Shown: positions 10,616 through 58,494 of the stretch, piece by piece
How positions within the stretch are numbered: position 1 is the stretch's first letter
Layout: each line of letters starts with the position of its first letter
NCBI RefSeq assembly: GCF_018326285.1
Contig: NZ_AP023363.1
Span: 62,001 to 126,000, forward strand
Reading direction: 5' to 3'
DNA: 64,000 bases
Source: Mycolicibacterium sp. TY81
GTDB taxonomy: Bacteria > Actinomycetota > Actinomycetes > Mycobacteriales > Mycobacteriaceae
The notes under the pieces: model-generated
What the model saw: the letters and a program-made list of their open reading frames with translations, nothing else
What the model was told of the DNA's origin: nothing
The model's database searches: none
Translations under genes and position numbers: made by a program

Positions 10616-10782
10616 TGACCGGATTTCCCTTTCCCTGGGACACCAAAGTCTTTTCGGTAGCCAAAAACTCGGAAGCCGCTGAAGGACGATGATTTCCGCA
10701 AAGCGAATTTGGTTATGCCCACAAATTGCCCCGCGCCTCGCGCCGACCGATCCCCTGTTGATGCCTTGTCGGACAAGAGGTT

Positions 10783-10861
10783 TGCTTCGGCAGGGCGATC
10801 CTTGGGTACCCGACCGGGGGGCCTATCGGGCTGGGGGGGAGGGGGATCGCCCCGCCGAAGC
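10783..10861 (-). ncRNA. Highly structured 5' leader or small RNA
   Basis: A near-perfect 18-bp inverted repeat: GCTTCGGC-A-GGGCGATCC at 10783-10800 pairs with GGATCGCCC-C-GCCGAAGC at 10844-10861, closing a G/C-rich loop of about 43 nt. On the minus strand this hairpin begins within a few bases of the predicted start of transcription from the promoter at 10872-10907, so the transcript would start with the stem. It lies in a gene-free region ahead of the operon at 10615. It could be a stabilising leader, a regulatory element or a small RNA. Confidence 0.5.
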
Positions 10862-10871
10862 AACGTCTTCT

Positions 10872-10907
10872 ACGTTAGTGGCAGTCAGAGGGTGGTTGTC
10901 CGCTTAA
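10872..10907 (-). promoter_or_regulatory. Promoter with TTAAGCG element (copy a)
   Basis: On the minus strand, TTAAGCG (10907-10901) lies exactly 23 nt upstream of TAACGT (10877-10872), a TANNNT -10 box. The wider motif TTTAAGCGGACAACCACC also occurs at copy b. Predicted start near 10865. No start codon follows at leaderless distance except a TTG, so the product is probably a leader. Confidence 0.6.
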
Positions 10908-11028
10908 AGACCCATTCGGGGAAATTGGTTGGAAAATTCTTTTTGGCAGCCGACTGAGTGATCTGAATGCAAACAGGAAATACGACCAATTGGGGTGACA
11001 GCCCAGTGGCGACCACTGCGCGCCTCGC

Positions 11029-11070
11029 AAATAGAAACGACCACCTTCGCGGTGATCGCAAAGGTGGTCG
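11029..11070 (-). terminator. Intrinsic terminator-like hairpin
   Basis: CGACCACCTT (11070-11061) pairs perfectly with AAGGTGGTCG (11047-11038) on the minus strand around a 13-nt loop and is followed by TTTCTATTT. It lies about 40-70 nt downstream of the predicted start from the promoter at 11115-11150. Transcription from that promoter could therefore end here and give a small RNA of roughly 75-80 nt. Confidence 0.5.
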
Positions 11071-11114
11071 CCCTGGCGAAGGTAGTCGCCCTGCGTGGTC
11101 GAAACGCAGTTGAT

Positions 11115-11150
11115 ACGTTACCCGACGCTCGGTGGTGGTTGTCCGCTTAA
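11115..11150 (-). promoter_or_regulatory. Promoter with TTAAGCG element (copy b)
   Basis: TTAAGCG (11150-11144) is 23 nt upstream of TAACGT (11120-11115) on the minus strand, the same spacing and same -10 box as copy a, 243 bp away. The flanking bases GGACAACCACC are shared with copy a. Predicted start near 11108; no open frame begins there. Confidence 0.6.
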
Positions 11151-11179
11151 ACACCGTACCCGGCGCCGATACTCTTCCG

Positions 11180-12121
11180 TTAGAGCCGGCCTTTGACGGA
11201 ACGGTTCAGAAGATCGTCGCCATTGAGCACTTCGTCGCGGTCGAGCTTCGATTCGGTTCCCGACGCCTCGCCCTCACGCTCGCCGGCGGGCTGGCGGCCT
11301 GGGCCGCCCATTCCCATGCCCGGCATCATCGGCATACCGCCCATGGCGGCTCCGCCAGGGCCCGCAGGGCTGCCCGGCCCCGCGACGGCCACCGGTGTGC
11401 TCTCCGCCCCGGTCGGGACCGCTGTCGTCGCGTTGGTCAGTGTCGGCGCCGACATGACCGGGGACGGGTCAGAGGACGTGTGCGTCTGCCCTGGCTCCTC
11501 ACCACCGGTGACGCTAGGCCCAAAATCACTGGTGTCGGTCACATCTGAGCTGGGATTGAAACCGGAGCCGGGACGCCCGGCCGCTGGGGCGGCCCCAGGC
11601 GCCGCGGGTGCCCCTGCACCCATCGGCATCGCTGACGCCGGCGCCGCGGCAAGGGACTGCAGCAGTTGAGCCAACTTCGCGCGCGCCTCGGGTGAGAGCT
11701 GCTCATCGGCGGCTTTATGGTCCGCGCCGAGCTGATCGAGGTTGTCGGCGGTGTCCTTGTGGTACTTCGCTTCAGCGCGTTCCCTGCGGGCCAACAGTTC
11801 ACCGAGTTTGTCTTCGGCGCGCTTGAGTCGCCCCGGGTCGCCGGGGTCGTCGCTTTGCGAGGCCGCGAGCAGTTCCTGTTGCGCCGCATCAATTTCCGCT
11901 GCGGTCGGCGCGCTATCGGTGTAGTCCCGCAGCGCCGTGACGGCGCGTTCTTTGGCGGCGGCCACCGCCGCGGCCACCGATTCCAGGTGCGCGGCAAGCG
12001 ACGTGCTGGTCTGCATCTGCGCCCGCCACGCGTCGGCGGTTGCCCCGTCACCGCTGAGCCCAATCTGGTTGAGCGCGTCGGTGATGGCTTGCGGGTTGGG
12101 CGGGCTGATCGGTGCGCTCAT
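11180..12121 (-). CDS. EspB-like ESX-associated protein
   Basis: 313 residues starting at the ATG 12121, which overlaps the upstream stop as ATGA. The first 150 residues are two long amphipathic helices (SLAAHLESVAAAVAAAKERAVTALRDYTDSAP; RLKRAEDKLGELLARRERAEAKYHKDTADNLDQL). A Pro/Gly/Ala/Met-rich disordered region follows, then a charged end DRDEVLNGDDLLNRSVKGRL. Helical N-terminus, long disordered middle and acidic tail are typical of Esp-type ESX substrates. The position after an EspL-like gene mirrors espL-espB in ESX-1. No clear YxxxD/E export motif was seen, so secretion is not proven. Confidence 0.65.
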   Translation of the reverse strand: MSAPISPPNPQAITDALNQIGLSGDGATADAWRAQMQTSTSLAAHLESVAAAVAAAKERAVTALRDYTDSAPTAAEIDAAQQELLAASQSDDPGDPGRLKRAEDKLGELLARRERAEAKYHKDTADNLDQLGADHKAADEQLSPEARAKLAQLLQSLAAAPASAMPMGAGAPAAPGAAPAAGRPGSGFNPSSDVTDTSDFGPSVTGGEEPGQTHTSSDPSPVMSAPTLTNATTAVPTGAESTPVAVAGPGSPAGPGGAAMGGMPMMPGMGMGGPGRQPAGEREGEASGTESKLDRDEVLNGDDLLNRSVKGRL

Positions 12122-12393
12122 CGTGCCTTCACATTCTCGTACCAATCCACGAACGCGCCGAAAATGACTGCGTTGACGAGGTTTTGCAGCTCGTCGGCTG
12201 CCATCGACGTGATCGCATCGCTGACCGCGATGTCAAGAATCTTGCCGTGCTTGACCCGCACAATGATGGTGGGCTCTGCGGGGTCGTCCATGAACGCGCC
12301 GATACGGTCCAGCCGCGCGTTCTTCTCCACCATGGTCATCTGCAGGGCGGTGAGCGATTCGGTGATCGCGTCAATGTTCTTGGTATCAGCCAT
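12118..12393 (-). CDS. EspL-like YbaB/EbfC-family protein
   Basis: 91 residues from the ATG at 12393. An N-terminal helix with register (IDAITESLTALQMTMVEKNARLD) is followed by strands (PTIIVRVKHGKILDIAVSD) and a C-terminal helix (ADELQNLVNAVIFGAFVDWYENVKAR), the YbaB fold layout. In ESX-1 the YbaB-like EspL stabilises EspE/F/H-type substrates. The gene overlaps both neighbours (TAATG at the start, ATGA at the end), so it is made together with them. Assignment rests on pattern and context only. Confidence 0.65.
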   Translation of the reverse strand: MADTKNIDAITESLTALQMTMVEKNARLDRIGAFMDDPAEPTIIVRVKHGKILDIAVSDAITSMAADELQNLVNAVIFGAFVDWYENVKAR

Positions 12394-12920
12394 TACTGGT
12401 CCAGCGCTGTCTGCAGAGCGGTCGAGCACTGGTTGTGGGCGTCGGCCAGATCGCTCAATGCCTGGGTCACGGTCGCGCGGCCGGTGTCGACAAGCTGCGT
12501 ACGGTAACGGCCCAGGTCGTTCTGATACCAGTTGTTGGCCTGGGACAGCTGCGGGGCTTTGGCCCAGTCGGAGGTGAAGGTGTGCACCGCGCCGTTGATG
12601 CGCTGCTTCGCCCCGGTGACAGCAGCGGCGAACGCGTCGAGGTGGTCGGCGATGTCGAGGTGCCGGCGGGTCGAGTCGTCCACGGTGCGCAGGTGCTCTC
12701 GAGTTTTGGTGGCGGACGCTTGCGCAAGCAGGCCTTCGTTGTTGTTGGTGGCCTCGCGGTGGGCGTCCTGCAGGTGCGGAGCGGCCTGGGTGCTCAGTGC
12801 TGCGGCAACTTCCTCGCGGTGGTGGCGCGCGCTTTCGCTGATCTTGTCTTCGTCATACGCAGAGGGCCAACGGTTTTCGATGATGAGGTCGGCGTCGTCG
12901 CCGCTGAGTCGGTCAATCAT
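12393..12920 (-). CDS. Helical ESX-associated protein
   Basis: 175 residues from the ATG at 12920, which overlaps the small gene before it. It is nearly all helical: an acidic start (DADLIIENRWPSAYDEDKISESARHHREEVAAAL), then WAKAPQLSQANNWYQNDLGRYRTQL. This resembles the two-helix N-terminal domains of ESX substrates or their partners. There is no WXG and no PE/PPE motif. Position before the EspL-like gene suggests it is the EspL client or a substrate partner, which is inference. Confidence 0.6.
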   Translation of the reverse strand: MIDRLSGDDADLIIENRWPSAYDEDKISESARHHREEVAAALSTQAAPHLQDAHREATNNNEGLLAQASATKTREHLRTVDDSTRRHLDIADHLDAFAAAVTGAKQRINGAVHTFTSDWAKAPQLSQANNWYQNDLGRYRTQLVDTGRATVTQALSDLADAHNQCSTALQTALDQ

Positions 12921-13101
12921 TGTCGGCCAGCAGGTTGAGTTCAGCCAGGCACGCACGGGTGTGCGCTTCGAACGCCGCGCCGGAGACGGGGACAGACCCC
13001 AAGGTGATCAATGGGAGAACCATGTCGTCCCCGCCTCCGTGCACGGTGATTGTTACGGGGCCAGACCTGGCCCCGTAGCATCCGTCTGAACTGGTGTCCA
13101 T
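12913..13101 (-). CDS. Small hypothetical protein, ESX cluster
   Basis: 62 residues if the ATG at 13101 is used; a second candidate start at 13023 (MVLPLITLGSVPVSG) follows GGAGGCGGGGACGAC and would give 36 residues. The common part ends GAAFEAHTRACLAELNLLADND. It sits 20 nt after the Esx-size gene and overlaps the next by 8 nt. Not recognised; start uncertain. Confidence 0.45.
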   Translation of the reverse strand: MDTSSDGCYGARSGPVTITVHGGGDDMVLPLITLGSVPVSGAAFEAHTRACLAELNLLADND

Positions 13102-13121
13102 CAACCGAGTTGCGTTGGCAC

Positions 13122-13412
13122 TCAGAGAATCGAGCTCGCGGACCGCTGGTCGCGGGCCCCGTTCTTCTCCGTGGCCTCGGTGACGGCCTGGATGATCTGC
13201 CGAGTGGTATCGATCGCTTCGCCCAGCAGCTGGCGCTGCTGGTTCACGACGGTCTGGACCTGGTCGGTGAACTGGCCCGCGCCGGAAGCCACGTACTGCT
13301 GGCCCGAGTTCGCGAAGTCATCGGTCTGATGGGACATCGTGCTCGCGTAGCCGTTGAGCGTGGACGTCGCGGCGGCGATCGCACCGGGCTTGTAGCCAAC
13401 GATTTCTGACAT
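13122..13412 (-). CDS. Esx-size (WXG100-like) ESX substrate
   Basis: 96 residues, the usual length for WXG100 proteins, predicted as two helices joined near residues 36-46 (NSGQQYVASGAGQFTD). The canonical Trp-x-Gly turn is absent. AGGAGA lies 5 nt before the ATG. With the 102-residue gene just upstream it forms the tandem pair expected for an EsxB/EsxA heterodimer, placed right after PPE. No C-terminal YxxxD/E is visible here, so the export signal could be on a partner. Confidence 0.75.
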   Translation of the reverse strand: MSEIVGYKPGAIAAATSTLNGYASTMSHQTDDFANSGQQYVASGAGQFTDQVQTVVNQQRQLLGEAIDTTRQIIQAVTEATEKNGARDQRSASSIL

Positions 13413-13447
13413 GTGTGTCTCCTAATCCGTGTCGAAATGGGTTGCGG

Positions 13448-13756
13448 TTAGTGGGTGCCCAGGCCGTGGAACATCGCCCCCGACTCTTCTTCGTTGTGAA
13501 GGTCGTCGGTGTGAGCGTTGCGGATGTTCTCGAACAGGGTCTTCTCCTTCTGGTGCAGCTGAGCCACGTGCTCGCTGGTGCGCTGCACGGCGAGCTGGCA
13601 CGCGTCCGAGGCCTGACCGGTCATCGCACCCGATGCCTTCAGGTCCTCGAACTCACGCACCGTGGCCTGCCAGGTCTGGTAGAAGCCGTCCGAGTGCTGC
13701 TCCATCTGGTCCACCAGGTGGCCAGCAACACTGTGATCGATCGCTACGTCTGCCAT
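13448..13756 (-). CDS. Esx-size (WXG100-like) ESX substrate, partner
   Basis: 102 residues, helix-turn-helix in outline: HLVDQMEQHSDGFYQTWQATVREFEDLKASGAMTGQASDACQLAVQRTSEHVAQLHQKEKTLFENI. The turn region carries SGAMTG instead of WXG. It ends in an acidic and then His/Gly tail. It precedes the 96-residue partner by 35 nt and follows PPE by 46 nt. Role as secreted heterodimer partner is inferred from length, fold pattern and context. Confidence 0.75.
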   Translation of the reverse strand: MADVAIDHSVAGHLVDQMEQHSDGFYQTWQATVREFEDLKASGAMTGQASDACQLAVQRTSEHVAQLHQKEKTLFENIRNAHTDDLHNEEESGAMFHGLGTH

Positions 13757-13802
13757 TTCCGTTGTGTCCTTTCATATTTCCCGTTTGCACGGGCGTGTGG
13801 TT

Positions 13803-14987
13803 TCAGTCTAGCGTGCCCGAACGCTTGGGCATCCATTGCGAGAGAATCGAATTCGCTCGTGCAGTGTCGGTGTCGGCGATTGGCGCGACACCTGCTTCGA
13901 TGGTCGATTCCCGCCCGGTGTGTTCCTCCTTTCCTCGCATTCCGGCACCGCCGAGGCCACCCATCCCAGCCCCTGGTAGTGATGTACTAGCCGCTGGGAC
14001 AGCGGTTTTCGCTCCCCCAGTGAGCGACTGGGTGCTTGACATTGCGGTCACACCGCCACCGCCCGGCAGAGCGGACGGCGACAAGGCGGGCCGCAGCCCA
14101 CCAACACCGCCACCGGCCATCGCGCCGCCGCCGCCACCGCCGAGTGACGCCGCCCCGCCCGCCGCGCCGCCGGTAGCGGCGAACGGGGTATACGAGCTCA
14201 ACGGATCCTCACCGGAGCCGGCGCCCATGCCGTTGCCCATGCCTTGGAAACTGCCGAGCAGCTGCTGAGCCATCTGCTGCGGAGCGGAGAACGCCTGCTG
14301 GAACGGCTGCAACAACTGTTGCGGAGCGGACATCGCCTCTTGGGCCGGCTGCATGAATTGCGAAGGGTCCATTGCCTGTTGGTTGGCCACCGACCCCGCG
14401 GTGTTCTGCGCGATGTTGGCCACCGCGTCCTGCGCCGCGTCCAAGGCTGGCTCGGCCGGATTGACCAAGGGGGGCGGCGGCACCACCGGCACCGGCGCCG
14501 ACGCCGCGATGACCGACGCGTCATACACGGTCATCTGCGTCGCGTTCTGCGTCCAATGTTCCACGTACGTGGTGTCCAGGAAGGTGATGATCGGCTGGTT
14601 GATACCCAGGAAGTTCGTCGCCACCGCGGTCGCCTGGGCGATGCGGTTCTGAATCGACACCTGCGACGGAATCATTGCCCCGCGCGCCATTCCGTAGGAT
14701 TCAGCGACCACCACACAGGCCGCCGACAGGCGCTCGCACTCGGCGACCATCGACTGCAACCAGGCACTGTAGGCGCTGATTTTCGCTTGCCGCGCAGCCA
14801 CAGTCAGGCCCGGCCACAGCGCATCCATTGCACCTTCGTGCGCCAGCAGCACGCCCTGCTGAATCTCGAAGCTGGCCGCCAGCATCGTCAGCGCGGCCGC
14901 GGACGCGAGGTAGGTCGCGGGCCCGGTGCCTGCTTCCATCCGGCCGGAGTTCATTTCCGGCGTGTAGGACGGCCACGGCTCAGTCAC
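13803..14987 (-). CDS. PPE-family ESX substrate
   Basis: 394 residues. The first 175 or so are a PPE domain: PWPSYTPEMNSGRMEAGTGPATYLASAAALTML, then QAKISAYSAWLQSMVAECERLSAACVVVAESYGMARGAMIPSQVSIQNRIAQATAVATNFLGINQPIITFLDTTYVEHWTQNA. The Pro-Pro-Glu signature itself has drifted to Tyr-Thr-Pro-Glu. A disordered Gln/Pro/Gly-rich C-terminal half with PQQL-type stretches follows, resembling the middle of the adjacent NlpC/P60 protein. PPE proteins pair with a PE protein and are bound by EspG; both are encoded upstream in this cluster. Confidence 0.88.
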   Translation of the reverse strand: MTEPWPSYTPEMNSGRMEAGTGPATYLASAAALTMLAASFEIQQGVLLAHEGAMDALWPGLTVAARQAKISAYSAWLQSMVAECERLSAACVVVAESYGMARGAMIPSQVSIQNRIAQATAVATNFLGINQPIITFLDTTYVEHWTQNATQMTVYDASVIAASAPVPVVPPPPLVNPAEPALDAAQDAVANIAQNTAGSVANQQAMDPSQFMQPAQEAMSAPQQLLQPFQQAFSAPQQMAQQLLGSFQGMGNGMGAGSGEDPLSSYTPFAATGGAAGGAASLGGGGGGAMAGGGVGGLRPALSPSALPGGGGVTAMSSTQSLTGGAKTAVPAASTSLPGAGMGGLGGAGMRGKEEHTGRESTIEAGVAPIADTDTARANSILSQWMPKRSGTLD

Positions 14988-15035
14988 GACGCACCTCCAA
15001 GTCGGCGGCCTCGGGCACGCATGGGTCGGTCATGG

Positions 15036-16103
15036 TCACGCCGCCTCCGATAGGAATCGACGGAACACGGTGCCGGGCGTGACGGGGCGGACCCGCACGG
15101 TCTGTCCGGACTCGGGGGCTTCGGCGATCATGCCGTTGCCGACATAGAGCTGTACGTGGTGCGGCCCGCCGCTGCCAGAGAACGCGGACGGCGGGAACGC
15201 CAGGTCCATCGACCGGGGCGCGGACACCGAACTGCCGCTGGAGTATTGGGATTGCGAGGTGGATGCACCCAGCACGTCATTGCCGGTGACCGCCGCATAG
15301 GCCCACCGGGTGAAGCCCGAGCAGTCGACGCCCTGCTTCTTGTAGTCGCCGAAAGAGTCGGCGACACCACCGTCATGGACGCCTTGCGACATACCGGGAC
15401 GGTTGGGGTCGTGGCCACCACCCCAGGCGTATTCCACCTTGCCGGCGGTCTGTGACACGAACTGGTCCAGGCGCGACTGCAGGTCCCCGGACAACGGGCC
15501 GCCGCCACCGCCGCCCCCGCTGCCGCCGCCGACAGAACCGACTGCGGCCATGGGGCTCATCGAGCCGCCAGGGAATCCGCCTAGCCCGCCGGGCATTCCC
15601 CCGCCGCCGAGCAGACTCGCCACCGGTGAAATAAGCTGCTGCGGCAGCTGCTGCGCGGATCCCAACGCGCCCTGCAACGGTTGTCCAAAACTTGAAAGCG
15701 CGTCCATGGGCGCTTTCGCCATCCCTGGTACCGGCATATTTGAAGCGAACGCACCCAAGGGCGTGCCGCCCGGGCCGCCGGAGCCTTTTCCTAATCCAGA
15801 ATTAGCGAAACCACCACGGCCTTCACTTCCGGGCACGTTCATCTGCCCGGTTTTTGAAAATTTCCCAGCGGATTCGTTGTCACCATCGGCAATACTTTGT
15901 GCACCGGATGCGGAATTCGAAACAGTCTTCTGACCGTGATTCTGCAAGCTTTCAGTGCGGCTATTTGAGGAATCAATAGATGGGTCCATGTCGCTTCGGC
16001 CGGGCCCGGTCGCCGGCAACGCCGGACTTTCCAAAGTCCCGCCGAGACGACCCAGCTGACCGCCGACCAGCGGCGGATCAACCTTAGTGTTTGGACTAGT
16101 CAT
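15036..16103 (-). CDS. NlpC/P60 peptidoglycan hydrolase, ESX-linked
   Basis: 355 residues. A disordered Gly/Ser/Asn-rich N-terminal 220 residues with two PQQL-type motifs precede a C-terminal NlpC/P60 domain. The catalytic Cys is about 261 in GVDCSGFTRWAY, the His about 315-316 in GGPHHVQLYVG, and a third polar residue in AEAPESG. There is no classical signal peptide, so export, if any, would be through the ESX system; this is inference. It may cut the peptidoglycan stem for secretion or transfer. Gene order is EspC-like, NlpC/P60, PPE. Confidence 0.88.
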   Translation of the reverse strand: MTSPNTKVDPPLVGGQLGRLGGTLESPALPATGPGRSDMDPSIDSSNSRTESLQNHGQKTVSNSASGAQSIADGDNESAGKFSKTGQMNVPGSEGRGGFANSGLGKGSGGPGGTPLGAFASNMPVPGMAKAPMDALSSFGQPLQGALGSAQQLPQQLISPVASLLGGGGMPGGLGGFPGGSMSPMAAVGSVGGGSGGGGGGGPLSGDLQSRLDQFVSQTAGKVEYAWGGGHDPNRPGMSQGVHDGGVADSFGDYKKQGVDCSGFTRWAYAAVTGNDVLGASTSQSQYSSGSSVSAPRSMDLAFPPSAFSGSGGPHHVQLYVGNGMIAEAPESGQTVRVRPVTPGTVFRRFLSEAA

Positions 16104-16125
16104 GTCAGGCTGCCGTCACACAGAC

Positions 16126-16467
16126 TTACGTCGCGGTCCCGTACGAAAACTGGTTCGACGAGTCGGCCTCATCGGATTCCACACCGCGAGCGTGGTTTTC
16201 AAGTTCTTCGGCCACGCGTAGCAGCTCCGTCTTGATGGCCGTTGCCTTCGTCGCCGCGTCGTGAAAGCCCTCTTCCAACGCGGCCGCCGTGTCAGCGAAG
16301 ATGCCCGCCGGCGCTCCATCGAGGGTGTTGACCGAAGCGTCCTGCCGGTAAGAATCCACCGCGCCGGACTGGTCATGAATAAACGCGGTCAGGTCATTGT
16401 TGGCGATATCGCGCAGCTGCTGAGCCTTAGCCCGCAATTGCCCCAGGTCAATGGAAGTATTCACCAT
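16126..16467 (-). CDS. EspC-like helical ESX protein
   Basis: 113 residues forming two amphipathic helices around SVNTLDGAPAGIF, in the size range of EspC/Esx-type substrates (IDLGQLRAKAQQLRDIANNDLTAFIHDQSGAVDSY ... DTAAALEEGFHDAATKATAIKTELLRVAEELENHARG). The ATG at 16467 lies 6 nt after a TAAGAT -10 box, so the mRNA is probably leaderless. It has its own promoter of the TTAAGCG class even though EspG ends 49 nt upstream. Confidence 0.7.
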   Translation of the reverse strand: MVNTSIDLGQLRAKAQQLRDIANNDLTAFIHDQSGAVDSYRQDASVNTLDGAPAGIFADTAAALEEGFHDAATKATAIKTELLRVAEELENHARGVESDEADSSNQFSYGTAT

Positions 16468-16473
16468 GGGGCT

Positions 16474-16509
16474 ATCTTATCCGCCGAAAACGCCTACCCT
16501 GTCGCTTAA
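16474..16509 (-). promoter_or_regulatory. TTAAGCG promoter of the EspC-like gene (copy c)
   Basis: TTAAGCG (16509-16503), continuing ACAGG, is 23 nt upstream of TAAGAT (16479-16474). The ATG follows after 6 nt, the spacing of leaderless mycobacterial transcripts. The core TTAAGCGACAGG is shared with the PE promoter at 17740-17776. Confidence 0.65.
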
Positions 16510-16515
16510 AAGGGT

Positions 16516-17415
16516 TTATGCGGATTTTGCTCTGTGGCGATACTGCGCGACGAATTCGACGACTTCTTTTTCCCACCGCGCAGCAGTCGCCGGCATGTAC
16601 GTGACGTGGCAGCTGCCATCGAGTCGCCAGGACGGCACGCTGAGCACCGCACCTTCCTCGAACTGCGTCAATCCGATCGCCGCATCAGTGGAGGCGACTC
16701 GGCGGTGGTCATCCCACACCGAGACACACACTTGCGCCGCAGCCAGCGGCGCCTTACCCAGCAGGGCGGTCACTTCGCTGGCCCGATCAGCGCCTACACC
16801 GGCCTGCGCCAGCAGCGCAGACGCCGACTCCAGGCCCTGCTCCAGTTCCTCGCCCTCATAGGAGCCCAGCCGCACCTTGGACAGCGCATCCAGCGCCGGC
16901 ATCGGCAGGGTCACTTCCTGCAACGAATCGTGCGGCGCCCCGGGGGCCAACGCCTCCCACAACACGCGCGCCGCCTGAATCACCGGATCGGCCTGCCGAC
17001 TGTCCACACCGCTGAGCGACACAGCCCCACGGAACTGCACCGCCGCGGCCACCACCTGCTCAGTGACCGCGACTAAGAACTTCGCCTGCGGAATGTCCAC
17101 CGCCGTCACTTCGGCCAATTCCCGCAACGCCTCTGGCACATCCTCAACACGACGTGGCCTGTGCACCGCATCGCGGTACAGCAGAGTGGTGCCGAACAAC
17201 GTCACCGGCGGAGCCGCGAATGCGTCGAACACCGGCTGCCGCGACGGCTCCAACACAAGCCGATCACCGGACTCGACAACCACACCTTCATCGAGCAGTT
17301 CACGACGAAGCTGATAGTCGAGACCGCTCGCCCCGGTCGCCATACCCAGCGCAGCCGGATAGGGCACGACAAGACCGGCGCGGTGCAGGTAGTCCCAGTG
17401 CAGCGCGCTAAACAT
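16516..17415 (-). CDS. espG: EspG-family ESX chaperone
   Basis: 299 residues, the normal EspG length. Pattern matches include the N-terminal LDYQLRRELLDEGVVVESGDRLVLEP..., the central SYEGEELEQGLESASALLAQAGVG and the C-terminal SVPSWRLDGSCHVTYMPATAARWEKEVVEFVAQY. EspG proteins are cytosolic chaperones that bind the PPE partner of PE-PPE dimers and hand them to the ESX machine. The gene follows PE by 8 nt and is the only chaperone in the cluster. Confidence 0.82.
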   Translation of the reverse strand: MFSALHWDYLHRAGLVVPYPAALGMATGASGLDYQLRRELLDEGVVVESGDRLVLEPSRQPVFDAFAAPPVTLFGTTLLYRDAVHRPRRVEDVPEALRELAEVTAVDIPQAKFLVAVTEQVVAAAVQFRGAVSLSGVDSRQADPVIQAARVLWEALAPGAPHDSLQEVTLPMPALDALSKVRLGSYEGEELEQGLESASALLAQAGVGADRASEVTALLGKAPLAAAQVCVSVWDDHRRVASTDAAIGLTQFEEGAVLSVPSWRLDGSCHVTYMPATAARWEKEVVEFVAQYRHRAKSA

Positions 17416-17423
17416 CCCGGCTC

Positions 17424-17732
17424 TTACAGCACCGTGAACGGCGCCGCCGTGGCGACGTCCGTGAGCACGCTGCCGGCCTTATTGCCCTGCGACACAGCCA
17501 GAAACGCCATCACGTTGGCACCCGACGCCTGGCAGACCGCATCCAGCTGCGCGACCTGCGCCTGAATGTTGGTCGTCGCCGTCGCCGATGCCAGCTCGGA
17601 CCCCGGAGGGGTCACCGAATGCGCAATACCCGTCGACGCCAGGTTCGCGGCCATGTTGCCCAGATTGAAGCCCTCAAGCCCCGTGAGCAGACCCTCGATC
17701 TCGCCGATACCCATCAAACCGAAATCCATCAT
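17424..17732 (-). CDS. PE-family ESX substrate
   Basis: 102 residues from the first of two adjacent ATGs at 17732, 7 nt after the TATCAT -10 box. The PE domain core is clear: AHSVTPPGSELASATATTNIQAQVAQLDAVCQASGANVMAFLAVSQGNKAGSVLTD. The usual Pro-Glu near residue 8-9 is not obvious, and no long C-terminal region follows. It is separated from its likely PPE partner by three genes, which is unusual because pairs are normally adjacent. GAGGAG before the second ATG may also serve. Confidence 0.78.
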   Translation of the reverse strand: MMDFGLMGIGEIEGLLTGLEGFNLGNMAANLASTGIAHSVTPPGSELASATATTNIQAQVAQLDAVCQASGANVMAFLAVSQGNKAGSVLTDVATAAPFTVL

Positions 17733-17739
17733 GCTCCTC

Positions 17740-17776
17740 ATGATAAGGCGGCCGCACCACCAGACCTGTCGCTTAA
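17740..17776 (-). promoter_or_regulatory. TTAAGCG promoter of the PE-espG genes (copy d)
   Basis: TTAAGCG (17776-17770), continuing ACAGG, is 24 nt upstream of TATCAT (17745-17740), with the ATG 7 nt further on. It lies in the divergent gap between the ESX cluster and the MoxR operon, so a factor bound here could affect both directions. Confidence 0.65.
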
Positions 17777-17954
17777 CGGCTGTTGATCTCGAACTTTGTT
17801 GTGCACGCAACGACGAAACGGCGCTGCGCCACGGCTCATTCATCTGACTTCGTCGATCGCCGCCGGGTTGACCGCAGGTTCCGCCCCTTCGAGACTAGGC
17901 GGGTTTTTAGCGTCAGGGCCCGCCGATTCCCCCGATAAGCTCTTCGGTGGGGAT

Positions 17955-21776: not shown

Positions 21777-23548
21777 CATGGCGGTGATCCAGTCGGCGGT
21801 GCCGCTGCGGATCGCCGTGGCGGTCGAGGACAGCACCGGTGAGGAAGTGGACGCCGATCAACGGCTGGGCTGGCTGCTGAACCTGGTGCACCAGATGAGC
21901 GCCGAGTTGATGCAGTCATGTTGGCGGCCCGAGGTTTTCGCCGCACTACATGCCGGGATCGATGCGCTGGGCCGCAAACTTCCGTCGACAGCAGCAGTGG
22001 TCGCCTCCCGGCTGGGCTGGGTACCGGCGCCGCCGGATGGCGTGTACGTGCCCTCCCGGGTGGTGCGCCTAGCCCAGGCCAACGTGGTTCCAGTGCTCAA
22101 GACCGTGGCGTTTCGGGACGCGCTGATCCCCGCGGTGCTCGCGGCCCTCGATGAGCAGGGCCGGCTGGATCACCAGCAGCTCAGTGACGGCCAGGGCCGG
22201 TACGTGAGTGCGGCATTTCTGCGGAACTTGTCTCGCCAGCTGCGCCGCGCCGGTGACGTCCCCGTCACATCGATCACCGAGATTCAGGACCCACCCAACG
22301 TGGCGCGGATCGCGCGGCTCGGGGCGGCCGATAGTCAGTTTGTCGAGCTAGTCGATTCGGGTCCAGACAGGGCGTGGCTGCGGATCAAATTGCCCACCTG
22401 CCCGCAGCCCGGCAGGGGCGCGGCGACTGGTCATGGTGCCGGTTGTGGTGCCCCACCCCACCGCACCTGAAACAGCGCGACATCGCCTGCTGGCACCTGC
22501 CCACCATCAGCATGGCCCGGGGTAAACCGTTGTTGCGGTTCACGATCACCGAATCCGTCCCGGAACCGGCGACAGCCACCGCGACTGCGGCTCTGGGTAT
22601 CGATTGGTCGCCGGCCTCGTTGGGTGCGGCCACGATGGTTGTCGAGCGCGGCGGACAGCTGGTCACCGACGCTCGAACCCATGTGTATGACGATCGGGGA
22701 CTGGGTGTGCGGCTGGCCCGGCTGCAGGCCGAAGGTCAGGCGCTGACGGGCAAGATTGCCCGGCTCACCAACCTCGCCGCCACCGCACCTGAACTGACGC
22801 AGGCCCGACTGATGACGAAAATCGCTGTCCTGCGCGATCACCGCCGCGCCGTGGGAGCCAAGCGGGCGCGGATCAACCGGGACATGGCATTCGATTTCGC
22901 GGCAACCATGACCACGATGGCCACCGCCTCGGGTGCCGGGGTAATAGCCGTGGAAGATCTGCGTGACCTCGAATCGCGCGGGCATGGACCGGTCAATAAC
23001 AACCGTGCCGCCCAATCTGCACGCCGGCGTGCGGTCGCGGCGCTGGAACATACCGCCGCCAAGGCGGGCCTGGAAGTGGTGATGTGCCCACCCCGGGGCA
23101 CCTCCGCGAACTGCCCGGGCTGCGACCAGGAACTGACCCGCCCCGGCGGCTACCACACCGCAACCTGCACCGAGTGCGGTATCCGCCTGGCGAACCGGGA
23201 TCAGATCGCCGGGCAGAACATCGCCAAACGGGTTCTGCTGGCCAAGACGAAAATCAAACGGCCCAAAGGCAAATCGAAACGCGTCAGCACCGTGGCGCAC
23301 CAACCAGTGCGCAGAACCCGAGACAAGACCACCACCACCCCCGAAACAACGGCGCCACAAACGCGTCCGCAACACCACCCCCACCCAACTGGCCAGCGAC
23401 CAGCACCCGATCACTCCTGCACGCACAGCGTCCGTGTGGGACAGAGACCAGCCAACTGCCAACCCGGCAGCACGCACCTCTGCACAACCGATCCCCGGCA
23501 CCAGCGACACCCACGTGTCAGCAAGTGTCAGAGACCGATAGACGCTTT
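21766..23548 (+). pseudogene. tnpB: TnpB of the IS607-like element, broken by a -1 nt frameshift
   Basis: The first frame (GTG at 21766 or ATG at 21778) encodes about 220 residues, to RAWLRIKLPTCPQPG. The rest continues in a second frame from RGDWSW onward. The switch lies at the run of four G at 22415-22418; one more G would join the frames. The second part carries the RuvC residues (LGIDWSPASLG, VIAVEDLRDLESR, LANRDQIAGQ) and a CPGC...CTEC zinc ribbon. No stop occurs before the element's right end. Either a decayed gene, a sequencing error in a G-run, or, less likely, programmed frameshifting. Confidence 0.75.
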
Positions 23549-24300
23549 CGCACTACAACGGCATGCCGGCCCTGTTCACGGCTCTGCACGACAAGGTGAA
23601 GACGTTCAAATACGAACGCGTGGGCCTGACCCGCGAGTTCTACCGCGCGTTCCCGGTCACCTCCGATCTGGTGTTCGCGGAGAAGCGCCTCGATGCAATC
23701 CGCGCTATGGCACAAGACATTTCCGATAAGCCGCTGGTGCAAGACATCATCGAGCCCGACGACCACTTCCTGTTCCGGCGCGAGCCGGACTCCGATCGCG
23801 GCGAGCACCGCGTCTACGCGAGCCTGGTCGATCAACTCGCCATCTGTGCCCTGGGAATTCCGGCCCTGGGCGCCGATACCGGCCGCGGCAAGATGATCCT
23901 CTACTACGGCGACACCAATTCCTCACAGAGCGACCAGGACTCGAAGATCATGCCGGCCAAGGACCTGAAAAGGACGATCAAAGCCGCGGGTATTCAGGTC
24001 AACGCCATCAACACCAAGTCCGGCGGCATCGGCGGCCTCGTGACCCAACTGGCCGAAGAAAGCGGCGGTCGGGTCTTCGACTTCCCCATGGGCATGTACG
24101 AGACCACCCGGCCCGACGAGGCCACCCAGAAGAAGATGATGACCTCGTTCATCGACGAGATCATCGCCAACGAGCCGAACTCGGCCCCGGACCTGAGCGC
24201 GAACATACCGGTGCCATGGGAGGTGCCGGACCTGGCGCTGCAGATCGCCCTCGTGGCAGCGCTCGCGCTGGCCCTGTGCCGATTGGGGACACGCCAATGA
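23549..24300 (+). pseudogene. VWA membrane protein, 3' part, split by IS607-like element
   Basis: 250 codons that continue the 20776-21100 frame. The protein reads HYNGMPALFTALHDKVKTFKYERVGLTREFYRAFPVTSDLVFAEKRLDAIRAM..., then GRGKMILYYGDTNSSQSDQDSKIMPAKDLKRTIKAAGIQVNAINTKSGGIGGLVTQLAEESGGRVFDFPMG. This is a Rossmann-type VWA domain. A C-terminal membrane segment (LALQIALVAALALALCRLG) follows. An internal ATG at 23563 could allow expression of the fragment. The stop overlaps the next ATG, so the downstream genes may still be translated. Confidence 0.8.
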
Positions 24301-39164: not shown

Positions 39165-39734
39165 ATGACCATGACTGTCCAGGCGGATCGTAATCGCCTC
39201 GCTACCAAGCTTATTGGCGACGAGTGGTTGATTGGTGCGACCCCCGAGGCGAAGACCGGGCCCGCTGATTGTGATAGCCAGACCGGCCAGGCGCACCGCA
39301 CTTCCCGCAGGCGGCGGCGCGGTGTGAGCGCATCGGTCGATGCCGGCACTGTGGCGGCGCGTCTTAACCGGTTGTTCGACACGGTCCGGCCACCTGGGCG
39401 CGGGCCGCTGCGCAACTACGAGGTGATCGGGGCCTTGCGGGTCCGCGGGATTGAGATGTCGGCACCGTATCTGTCCCAGTTGCGGTCCGGTAGGCGCAGC
39501 TCCCCCAGCTTGGATGTGCTGCGTGCGCTCGCTGACTTTTTCGGCGTGTCCATCGCCTATTTCACTGACGCCGACAGCGCTTACACGAGGTACGTGGATG
39601 CTGAATTGTGTTGGCTCGAAGCGGCACACGATCCGCAGGTCCGCGAGTTCACCACGGCGCTGCTCGCCCTGGCACCTGATGTCCGCGAGGAGCTCTTGAA
39701 GTCGATCCCGTCGCGGGACGGTGTGGCGGATTAG
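39165..39734 (+). CDS. EspR-like XRE-family regulator
   Basis: 189 residues from the ATG at 39165 (AAGGGGAAAATC before it). From about residue 60 it closely follows the EspR pattern: VAARLNRLFDTVRPPGRGPLRNYEVIGALRVRGIEMSAPYLSQLRSGRRSSPSLDVLRALADFFGVSIAYFTDADSAY, a helix-turn-helix, then a helical dimerisation region. EspR regulates ESX-1 substrate genes and organises DNA in mycobacteria. Here there is an added N-terminal region of about 60 residues, partly basic (RTSRRRRRG). A natural candidate for controlling the ESX-type genes in this window. Confidence 0.82.
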   Translation: MTMTVQADRNRLATKLIGDEWLIGATPEAKTGPADCDSQTGQAHRTSRRRRRGVSASVDAGTVAARLNRLFDTVRPPGRGPLRNYEVIGALRVRGIEMSAPYLSQLRSGRRSSPSLDVLRALADFFGVSIAYFTDADSAYTRYVDAELCWLEAAHDPQVREFTTALLALAPDVREELLKSIPSRDGVAD

Positions 39735-57011: not shown

Positions 57012-58494
57012 GAGCAATGATCAGAACCTGTGGATGAGCCTCGGCGAGGCGGCGTAGGAAAGGGCGCACCTTCCCGAGGATGATCTGAATGTCGAAGGTC
57101 TGATCAAGAGCCGGCGTTGGCGCGCTGGTTCGGGAAGGTACGCCCATGCTCACGGTAGTTCACGATGCGGATTCATCCAACGAGGATGCTGGCTCGTCGC
57201 GGTCGTTGCTCGATGAGATTGTCCGCGACGGTGCCCGCCAGATGCTGGCCGCAGCGTTGCGGGCTGAGGTCGCCGCCTACATCGAGGCTCATGCCGGTGA
57301 GCTTGATGAGAACGGGCACCGGCTGGTGGTGCGCAATGGCTATCACCGCGAGCGCGAGGTGCTCACCGCGGCGGGCGCGGTGAGTGTGACCGCGCCGCGG
57401 GTCAATGACAAACGTGTTGACCCGGACACTGGTGAGCGGCAACGGTTTTCCTCGGCGATCCTGCCGGCGTGGGTGCGCAAGTCGCCGCAGATGACCGAGG
57501 TGTTGCCGTTGCTGTATCTGCATGGCTTGTCGACCAGTGATTTCGGTCCGGCGTTGGAGCAGTTCCTGGGCTCGGGTGCCGGCTTGTCGGCCACGACGAT
57601 CACCCGACTCACCACGCAGTGGCAGGACGAGGCCAAGGCCTTCGAGGCCCGTGATCTGTCGGGCACCGACTACGTCTACCTGTGGGTCGACGGCATCCAT
57701 CTCAAGGTGCGCCTGGAGCAGGAGAAGCTCTGTTTGCTGGTGATGATCGGTGTGCGCGCTGACGGCCGCAAGGAGCTGGTCGCGCTCACCGACGGGTACC
57801 GGGAGTCGGCCGAGTCGTGGGCTGATCTGTTGCGGTCGTGCCGACGTCGCGGGATGACCGCACCGGTGCTGGCCGTCGGCGATGGGGCCCTGGGGGTTCT
57901 GGAAGGCCGTGCGTGAGGTGTTCCCGGCCACCGGCGAGCAGCGGTGCTGGTTTCACAAGCAGGCCAATGTTCTTGCCTGCCTGCCAAAGTCGGCTCATCC
58001 GGGGGGCGATCGCGGCGATGCGGGAGATCTACAACGCCGAGGATATCGACCACGCGCAGGTGGCGATCAAGGCGTTCGAGGTGGACTACGGCGCCAAGTA
58101 CCCCAAGGCGGTCGCCAAGATCGTCGATGACGCCGATGTGCTGCTGGAGTTCTATAAGTACCCGGCCGAGCACTGGGTCCATCTGCGCACTACCAACCCG
58201 ATCGAATCAACGTTTGCCACGGTACGTTTGAGGACCAAGGTGACCAAGGGGCCGGGTTCACGCGTCGCCGGAATGGCCATGGCTTACAAGCTGATCGACG
58301 CCGCGCAAGCCCGCTGGCGAGCCGTCAACGCACCGCACCTGGTCGCTCTGGTCCGGGCCGGCGCGATCTTCCACAAAGGCAAACTGCTCGAGCGACCCAC
58401 CGACATCACCCCGTCGGCGGACTCGGCACCGACCGAATCAACTGGAACGGAGGTCGCCTGAAACAAGCCGATCCACAGGTATTGACAATTCCTC
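57012..58494 (+). mobile_element. IS256-family insertion sequence
   Basis: 1483 bp bounded by imperfect inverted repeats of about 28 bp: the left end starts GAGCAATGATCAGAACCTGTGG and the reverse complement of the right end starts GAGGAATTGTCAATACCTGTGG, 21 of 28 positions matching. An 8-bp duplication CAGGGCAT flanks it. It carries one transposase gene, broken by two frameshifts. It interrupts the small gene at 56719-58620. Confidence 0.88.
57146..58461 (+). pseudogene. IS256-family (Mutator) transposase, two frameshifts
   Basis: Three successive frames give one transposase of about 438 residues. Part 1 has the catalytic Asp in LWVDGIHLKVRLEQEKLCLLVMIGV and DGYRESAESW. After five G at 57892-57896 (one too many) the second frame gives GFWKAVREVFPATGEQRCWFHKQANVLACLPKSAHPG. 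After six G at 58001-58006 (one too many) the third gives AIAAMREIYNAEDIDHAQVAIKAF...NPIESTFATVRLRTKVTKG with the catalytic Glu. All DDE residues are present, so only the frame is broken. Confidence 0.85.

Follow-up and report, generated by a model that had tools for sequence, protein, structure and literature searches.

Do the predicted ESX secretion genes on a plasmid of Mycolicibacterium sp. TY81 share a promoter element and, if so, which protein would read it? The question is raised by a stretch of 64,000 nucleotides (the window), which corresponds to bases 62001–126000 of the 277,627-bp contig C2 in a genome of 6.47 Mb; the stretches of C2 that were compared match pTY66_01, a plasmid of Mycolicibacterium sp. 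TY66, at 99.7–100% identity. Within the window, the heptamer TTAAGCG (the box) precedes TANNNT, a hexamer of the −10 type, at a nearly constant distance. The original prediction took the box to be a shared −35 element or activator site specific to one ESX cluster. The analyses described here lead to the conclusion that the element is real, that it occurs across the plasmid at promoters of predicted transfer and secretion genes, and that its spacing is locked. That the box acts as a cis-element is very likely, and a plasmid-encoded activator is its likely binder. The putative activator, judged from sequence and with a probability of roughly 0.6, is a WhiB-like (Wbl) protein that is here called WhiB-A.

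The box and its spacing in the window and on the plasmid

The four sites of the original prediction are present, all on the minus strand, with gaps of 23, 23, 23 and 24 nt between TTAAGCG and TANNNT. In 100 dinucleotide shuffles of the window, the mean number of such spaced sites was 0.04 and the largest was 1. Every TTAAGCG in the window (four copies) belongs to a spaced site. The heptamer alone is ordinary there, with a shuffle mean of 2.09 and at least four copies in 18 of the 100 shuffles; thus, the signal is carried by the spacing. Two of the sites stand ahead of ESX genes (PE-like and EspC-like), as had been predicted, and, because the −10 hexamer is only 7 and 6 nt from the ATG, leaderless mRNAs, a form of transcript that occurs in mycobacteria, are predicted for both. 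The other two stand ahead of predicted non-coding leaders, with strong hairpins downstream (fold z relative to shuffles of −5.33 and −6.45).

On the whole plasmid there are ten copies of TTAAGCG, six of which have TANNNT at 23 or 24 nt (mean of 0.05 and maximum of 1 in 100 shuffles); a seventh (C2:193217, minus strand) has GACGAT at 23 nt, and three have nothing. Ranked among all 7-mers of the plasmid for TANNNT at these two spacings, TTAAGCG comes first (6/10), followed by words with 4/231, 4/83 and 4/82. A free search of C2 with 7-letter words at spacings of 14–28 placed AGCGGAC-N20-TANNNT first (9/56; shuffle mean 0.13, maximum 2) and TTAAGCG-N23 second (5/10). Thus, the conserved part reaches past TTAAGCG, and the full element reads TTAAGCGGAC around a core of AGCG. 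In other parts of the plasmid, spaced copies precede operons of T4SS-like (type IV secretion system-like), coupling-protein and EccC-like genes, as well as some genes of unassigned role, so that the supposed restriction to one cluster was wrong.

The original prediction depended on the spaced motif being rare at random, which it is in shuffles of the window and of the plasmid; it is absent from a sample of the chromosome (80 stretches that cover 1.6 of 6.14 Mb). That sample holds four copies of TTAAGCG (three in one repeated sequence), with TANNNT at a spacing of 15–34 in none of the four, and AGCGGAC has TANNNT at 20 nt in 0 of 235 cases. Contigs C3 and C4 (49 kb) hold four TTAAGCG, and 22 loci (188,199 bases) with distant relatives of the VirB4-like or EspG-like proteins hold three, none with the spacing. 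Words with one mismatch have TANNNT at 23 or 24 nt in 11 of 289 cases on the plasmid, in 7 of 188 on the chimaera plasmid described below and in 3 of 1199 in the chromosome sample.

Retention on a second plasmid

Plasmid NZ_CP015269.1 of M. intracellulare subsp. chimaera has the same cluster (PPE protein 64% and VirB4-like protein 59% identical), and here the box can be followed in a related plasmid. Of 67 reciprocal orthologue pairs, nine retain the box together with its gap to the −10 and its place relative to the start codon, where a pair was counted if the boxes had ≤3 mismatches each and ≤5 over both and lay ≤120 nt upstream, the −10 fitted nAnnnT and the distances to the start codon differed by ≤3 nt. 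The nine pairs (41–70% identical) comprise the EspC-like, pilin-like, 254-aa, VirB4-like, PE-like and EccC-like genes, the first gene of the coupling-protein operon and two genes of unknown role. A profile with the spacing fixed at each value from 12 to 35 gave eight pairs at 23 and 0–2 at every other spacing, and is a cleaner control than the pair count; when 250 shuffled words were used instead of the box, 247 gave 0–4 pairs. On the chimaera plasmid, the EspC-like orthologue is preceded by TTAAGCG-N23-TATGCT and the PE-like orthologue by CTATGCG-N23-TAGACT, with 6 nt to the start.

In an alignment of 23 sites, which omits the site at chimaera 12005 and takes in the chimaera PE site, the G, C and G of the box are retained in 22, 23 and 23 sequences, respectively, and there is little conservation between the box and the −10; these sites were picked for box likeness, with the A and last T of the −10 fixed by selection. 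No further close plasmid was found in scans of genome contigs and viral contigs or in searches of whole-genome samples. A protein search yielded M. intracellulare relatives of WhiB-A (81%) and of the EspC-like protein (90%), each on 167,029-bp contigs.

Candidate readers of the box

With the −10 placed at −12, the box would occupy −42 to −36 and so directly precede the −35 slot, with TTAA at −42 to −39 followed by the nearly invariant GCG. The hexamers in the −35 slot are poor (GACAAC, ACAGGG and others), and a scan for the sigma-70 consensus (TTGACA, 16–18 nt, TATAAT) reported none of the four window sites. The TANNNT at the sites is a −10 of the SigA type, partly by construction, as TANNNT was in the search pattern. 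Thus, the two halves of the original proposal fare differently: an activator-type element is well supported by the spacing enrichment, the absence from the sampled chromosome and the conservation at orthologues, whereas less can be said for a plain −35 element, with the last G of the box 23 nt from the −10, no Sigma70_r2 match on the plasmid and a host sample without the combination.

Two WhiB genes are present on the plasmid, with WhiB-B near WhiB-A. WhiB-A has a Whib domain (PF02467, 29 bits compared with a cut-off of 23.6) and a G-x-W-A turn; in 12 aligned sequences C51, C73, C76 and C82 are invariant and a basic tail is conserved (consensus GRYRRRIQKLExIAATGxAPRTRR). The sequence matches the structures of WhiB6 (E 3e-5) and WhiB7 (E 8e-5). 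At E 1e-5, WhiB-A was found on two of 72,556 plasmid records, pTY66_01 and NZ_CP015269.1, which are the two box-bearing plasmids. It is the best candidate because the other candidate regulators shared by the two plasmids are found on 6, 86 and 239 records, and its association with the box is weak evidence.

According to excerpts from PMC3905903, PMC10245118 and the review PMC6282962, WhiB7 promoters have an AT-rich tract and a SigA-like −35, and WhiB7 acts with SigA. As far as these excerpts go, the promoters described here resemble those of WhiB7–SigA in having a short asymmetric element just upstream of the −35 slot and a SigA-type −10, with a Wbl protein with a basic C-terminus encoded on the same plasmid; they differ in the composition of the element (TTAA plus the nearly invariant GCG), in their poor −35 and in their targets, which are transfer and secretion genes. 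TTAAGCG(GAC), 23 nt before TANNNT, is likely bound by an activator encoded on the plasmid, with WhiB-A as the foremost candidate; this activator would recruit the host SigA polymerase to predicted promoters without a good −35. The TTAA part would replace the AT-rich site of WhiB7, and specificity would also come from GCG(GAC). A single activator would then switch on both predicted secretion machineries and the two hairpin RNAs that follow the type VII secretion system (T7SS) cluster. The transcription starts, activation over repression, the use of SigA and WhiB-A as the binder are what we infer.

There are several points that count against WhiB-A acting at such a box. The comparison rests on one diverged plasmid, where only two of five exact TTAAGCG have TANNNT at 23 nt, where other words lead the free word searches, and where several orthologous boxes have 2–3 mismatches. 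Words with one mismatch also gain TANNNT at 23 or 24 nt by chance, as in the chromosome sample. Three of the 250 shuffled words gave 6, 6 and 10 pairs, the last being ATTAGCG, which shares the AGCG end. At a lax threshold the orthologue test showed no excess (38 of 67 compared with a permutation mean of 40.2), and the stricter pair criterion was chosen after the rows of the lax test had been seen, so that its strength is somewhat flattered. As for the protein, the exact RGRP AT-hook and EPW triplet, which are features of the WhiB7 subclass, are not present in WhiB-A (GRVPRTRR and YHIVGMWAG stand instead), and its AlphaFold model is poor (mean predicted local distance difference test score, pLDDT, of 52). 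Its co-occurrence with the box concerns two plasmids that share many other genes and are not independent; WhiB-B and two helix-turn-helix (HTH) regulators are likewise common to both. There are ten database proteins related to WhiB-A, and the DNA around some of them lies outside the box comparison.

The same plasmid-wide activator box could be read by another protein, acting as a class II activator: WhiB-B, a two-HTH protein (C2:132255–132806) or an EspR-like protein (C2:219.1–219.8 kb). All three have counterparts on both plasmids, WhiB-B lies near WhiB-A, and DNA-binding families are matched by WhiB-B and by the EspR-like protein. This is unlikely: WhiB-B is found on six records, and 40-kb stretches of the four other plasmids hold three exact words, all lacking TANNNT at 23 or 24 nt, and two one-mismatch words that have it; the EspR-like protein is found on 86 records and the two-HTH protein on 239, few of which were examined for the box; and dimeric HTH proteins do not usually bind a single asymmetric box. 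The binder proposed originally was the EspR-like protein encoded in the window. Its likeness to EspR is borne out (108.6 bits). However, on the chimaera plasmid it is best matched by the orthologue of a different EspR-like gene, and the published EspR consensus, TTTGC[TC][GA], does not match TTAAGCGGAC, so that the box is disfavoured as an EspR site. The plasmid is similar to the EspR/espACD system in that EspR-like proteins are encoded on it; it is dissimilar in its box consensus and in its geometry, as the box is set 23–24 nt from the predicted −10, whereas the espA promoter has its nearest EspR site >300 bp upstream (excerpt of PMC3315491).

Two further explanations do without a plasmid-encoded activator. 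If an alternative sigma factor used the box as its −35, the fixed orientation and spacing of the box, its asymmetry and the sigma-like two-part layout would all be accounted for. This is improbable, as all 31 genomic matches to Sigma70_r2 and all 49 to Sigma70_r4_2 (for which 150 of 258 first-look candidates were scored) are chromosomal and none is on the plasmid, 1.6 Mb of chromosome holds no such promoter, the −10s are of the general TANNNT type, and a gap of 23 nt (20 after AGCGGAC) is long for a −35/−10 pair; the chromosome sample and both sigma domain searches likewise disfavour a plain sigma −35. An operator for a plasmid repressor that silences the transfer genes would also suit a position overlapping the polymerase site, and transfer genes are often repressed, but operators usually lie at variable positions, and the exact spacing to the −10 together with the poor −35 hexamers point to activation, which makes a repressor very improbable.

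Some observations concern the WhiB genes themselves. The WhiB-A orthologue at NZ_CP015269.1:23768–24211 (minus strand) is unannotated in the incomplete gene table of that record. Stretches of four mycobacterial plasmids each have two WhiB genes in close proximity to an HTH gene, the second WhiB being strongly diverged; in one of these stretches, conjugal-transfer, FtsK and EspG genes are annotated as well.

Genes, leaders and the wider setting

The features in question are collected in Table 1. In a Pfam scan of the cluster proteins (10 + 2), PPE and NlpC/P60 were named over the cut-off, and the names PE, EspG and EspC rest on the original prediction or on position.

Table 1. Boxes, genes and hairpins discussed in the text (window coordinates unless prefixed C2)
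Feature	Coordinates	Strand	Remarks
Site before PE-like gene	17740..17776	−	TTAAGCG 17770–17776, 24-nt gap, TATCAT 17740–17745, 7 nt to ATG
Site before EspC-like gene	16474..16509	−	TTAAGCG 16503–16509, 23-nt gap, TAAGAT, 6 nt to ATG
Leader site 1	11115..11150	−	Box TTAAGCGGACAACCACC; TTAAGCG, 23 nt, TAACGT; predicted promoter of short non-coding leader or small RNA
Leader site 2	10872..10907	−	Box TTAAGCGGACAACCACC; TTAAGCG, 23 nt, TAACGT; predicted promoter of second hairpin leader
Weaker copy, TTTAGCG-N23-TAAGCT	17906..17941	+	One mismatch, exact spacing; faces divergent MoxR/DUF58 genes (Pfam); outside the nine conserved orthologue pairs
PE-like gene	17424..17732	−	Name from original prediction; hypothetical protein in public record; no Pfam match at E 0.01
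EspG-like gene	16516..17415	−	Named by position; no Pfam match at E 0.01
EspC-like gene, 113 aa	16126..16467	−	Name from original prediction; no Pfam match at E 0.01
NlpC/P60 protein	15036..16103	−	Pfam
PPE protein	13803..14987	−	Pfam
Terminator-like hairpin, T-rich tail	11036..11073	−	About 35–72 nt past inferred start
Long hairpin, 86 nt	10779..10864	−	20-bp stem, C-rich interior; right after inferred start
EspR-like HTH protein	39165..39734	+	Originally proposed binder; disfavoured
Site before VirB4-like ATPase	C2:193217	−	GACGAT variant; AAA_10 below Pfam cut-off
Site before divergent 254-aa gene	C2:193768		Spaced box upstream
Site before gene for 95-aa pilin-like protein	C2:214969		Weak T4SS-pilin match, E 0.0034, below cut-off
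Site before divergent genes leading to coupling-protein-type ATPase	C2:214902	+	Coupling-protein domain over cut-off
Site before FtsK gene, here called EccC-like	C2:178836		Spaced box upstream
WhiB-A	C2:220953–221375		TY66 copy annotated as WhiB family

The boxes before the pilin-like and coupling-protein genes (C2:214902–214970) point towards one another, and transcription from either predicted promoter would cross the box of the opposite one; this layout is retained on the chimaera plasmid. At C2:25384 (plus strand), GTAGAGCGGAC-N20-TACGCT stands right before the ATG, upstream of a RAMP-superfamily CRISPR-associated gene; CRISPR-associated genes are also found on the chimaera plasmid, with no box seen there.

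The box shared by the two leader sites, TTAAGCGGACAACCACC, was sought in the whole genome with ≤2 mismatches: it is exact at those two sites and occurs once more with two mismatches, at C2:193201 before the VirB4-like gene, and the reversed control word occurs once. The more negative of the two fold scores given above belongs to the second leader, for which a longer cut gives a z of −4.18. Terminator-like sites in the region are not in excess (8 compared with a shuffle mean of 6.0), and there is no Rfam match at gathering score at either leader. Sub-threshold Rfam matches to mir-9242 and isrD (E 0.04–0.38) look like chance hairpins, and a likeness to 6C small RNA, considered on account of the C-rich loop, is without Rfam support. 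The two leaders, as far as their sequence goes, could be small RNAs or 5′ leaders; for the one that would start after 11115, a length of about 70–80 nt is predicted.

Other features lie in or near the window. Just left of its first base (C2:58686–61730) is a minus-strand array of 26 tRNA genes, which resembles arrays described on M. avium linear plasmids (excerpt of PMC12803027). The sole Rfam match at gathering score in the window is the small RNA Ms_AS-8 (57037–57108, minus strand, 60.8 bits), and a protein with a Cas12f1/TnpB-type domain is encoded at 22374–23729 (plus strand), close to an IS607 family transposase.

In excerpts from PMC4791881 and PMC12803027, pRAW-type plasmids with ESX-P clusters are described as needing T4SS components for conjugation. 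To the extent of those excerpts, the plasmid described here is like the pRAW group of ESX-P T7/T4SS plasmids, as EccB, EccD, mycosin, an FtsK-type ATPase, a VirB4-like ATPase and a coupling protein occur on it together; EccB, EccD and mycosin are annotated, the coupling-protein domain is over the Pfam cut-off and the AAA_10 domain of the VirB4-like protein is below it. PLSDB types both box-bearing plasmids as non-mobilizable. The differences from known T7/T4SS plasmids lie in the VirB4-like protein, which is 27–34% identical to its matches in the genome searches and 22–30% identical to plasmid records other than the two box-bearing ones (best 60 of 100), and in the box, as the 188 kb of related loci mentioned above hold no spaced copy. 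Among the literature matches listed, there is no report of a shared promoter element, of WhiB control or of T7/T4SS co-regulation on such plasmids.

Tentatively, and at somewhat less than even odds, a plasmid-encoded WhiB-like protein of a new subclass would read TTAAGCGGAC beside SigA and, as the only master switch, tie the two secretion machineries of mycobacterial conjugation together, with the two small RNAs perhaps tuning or ending the response. Mycobacterial ESX plasmids hold both T4SS-like and T7SS genes, and a shared cis-element with a named candidate activator makes their joint expression testable. The box offers a way to trace the transfer regulon by bioinformatics, and the Wbl protein that it may bring to light could be one that truly recognizes a specific sequence.

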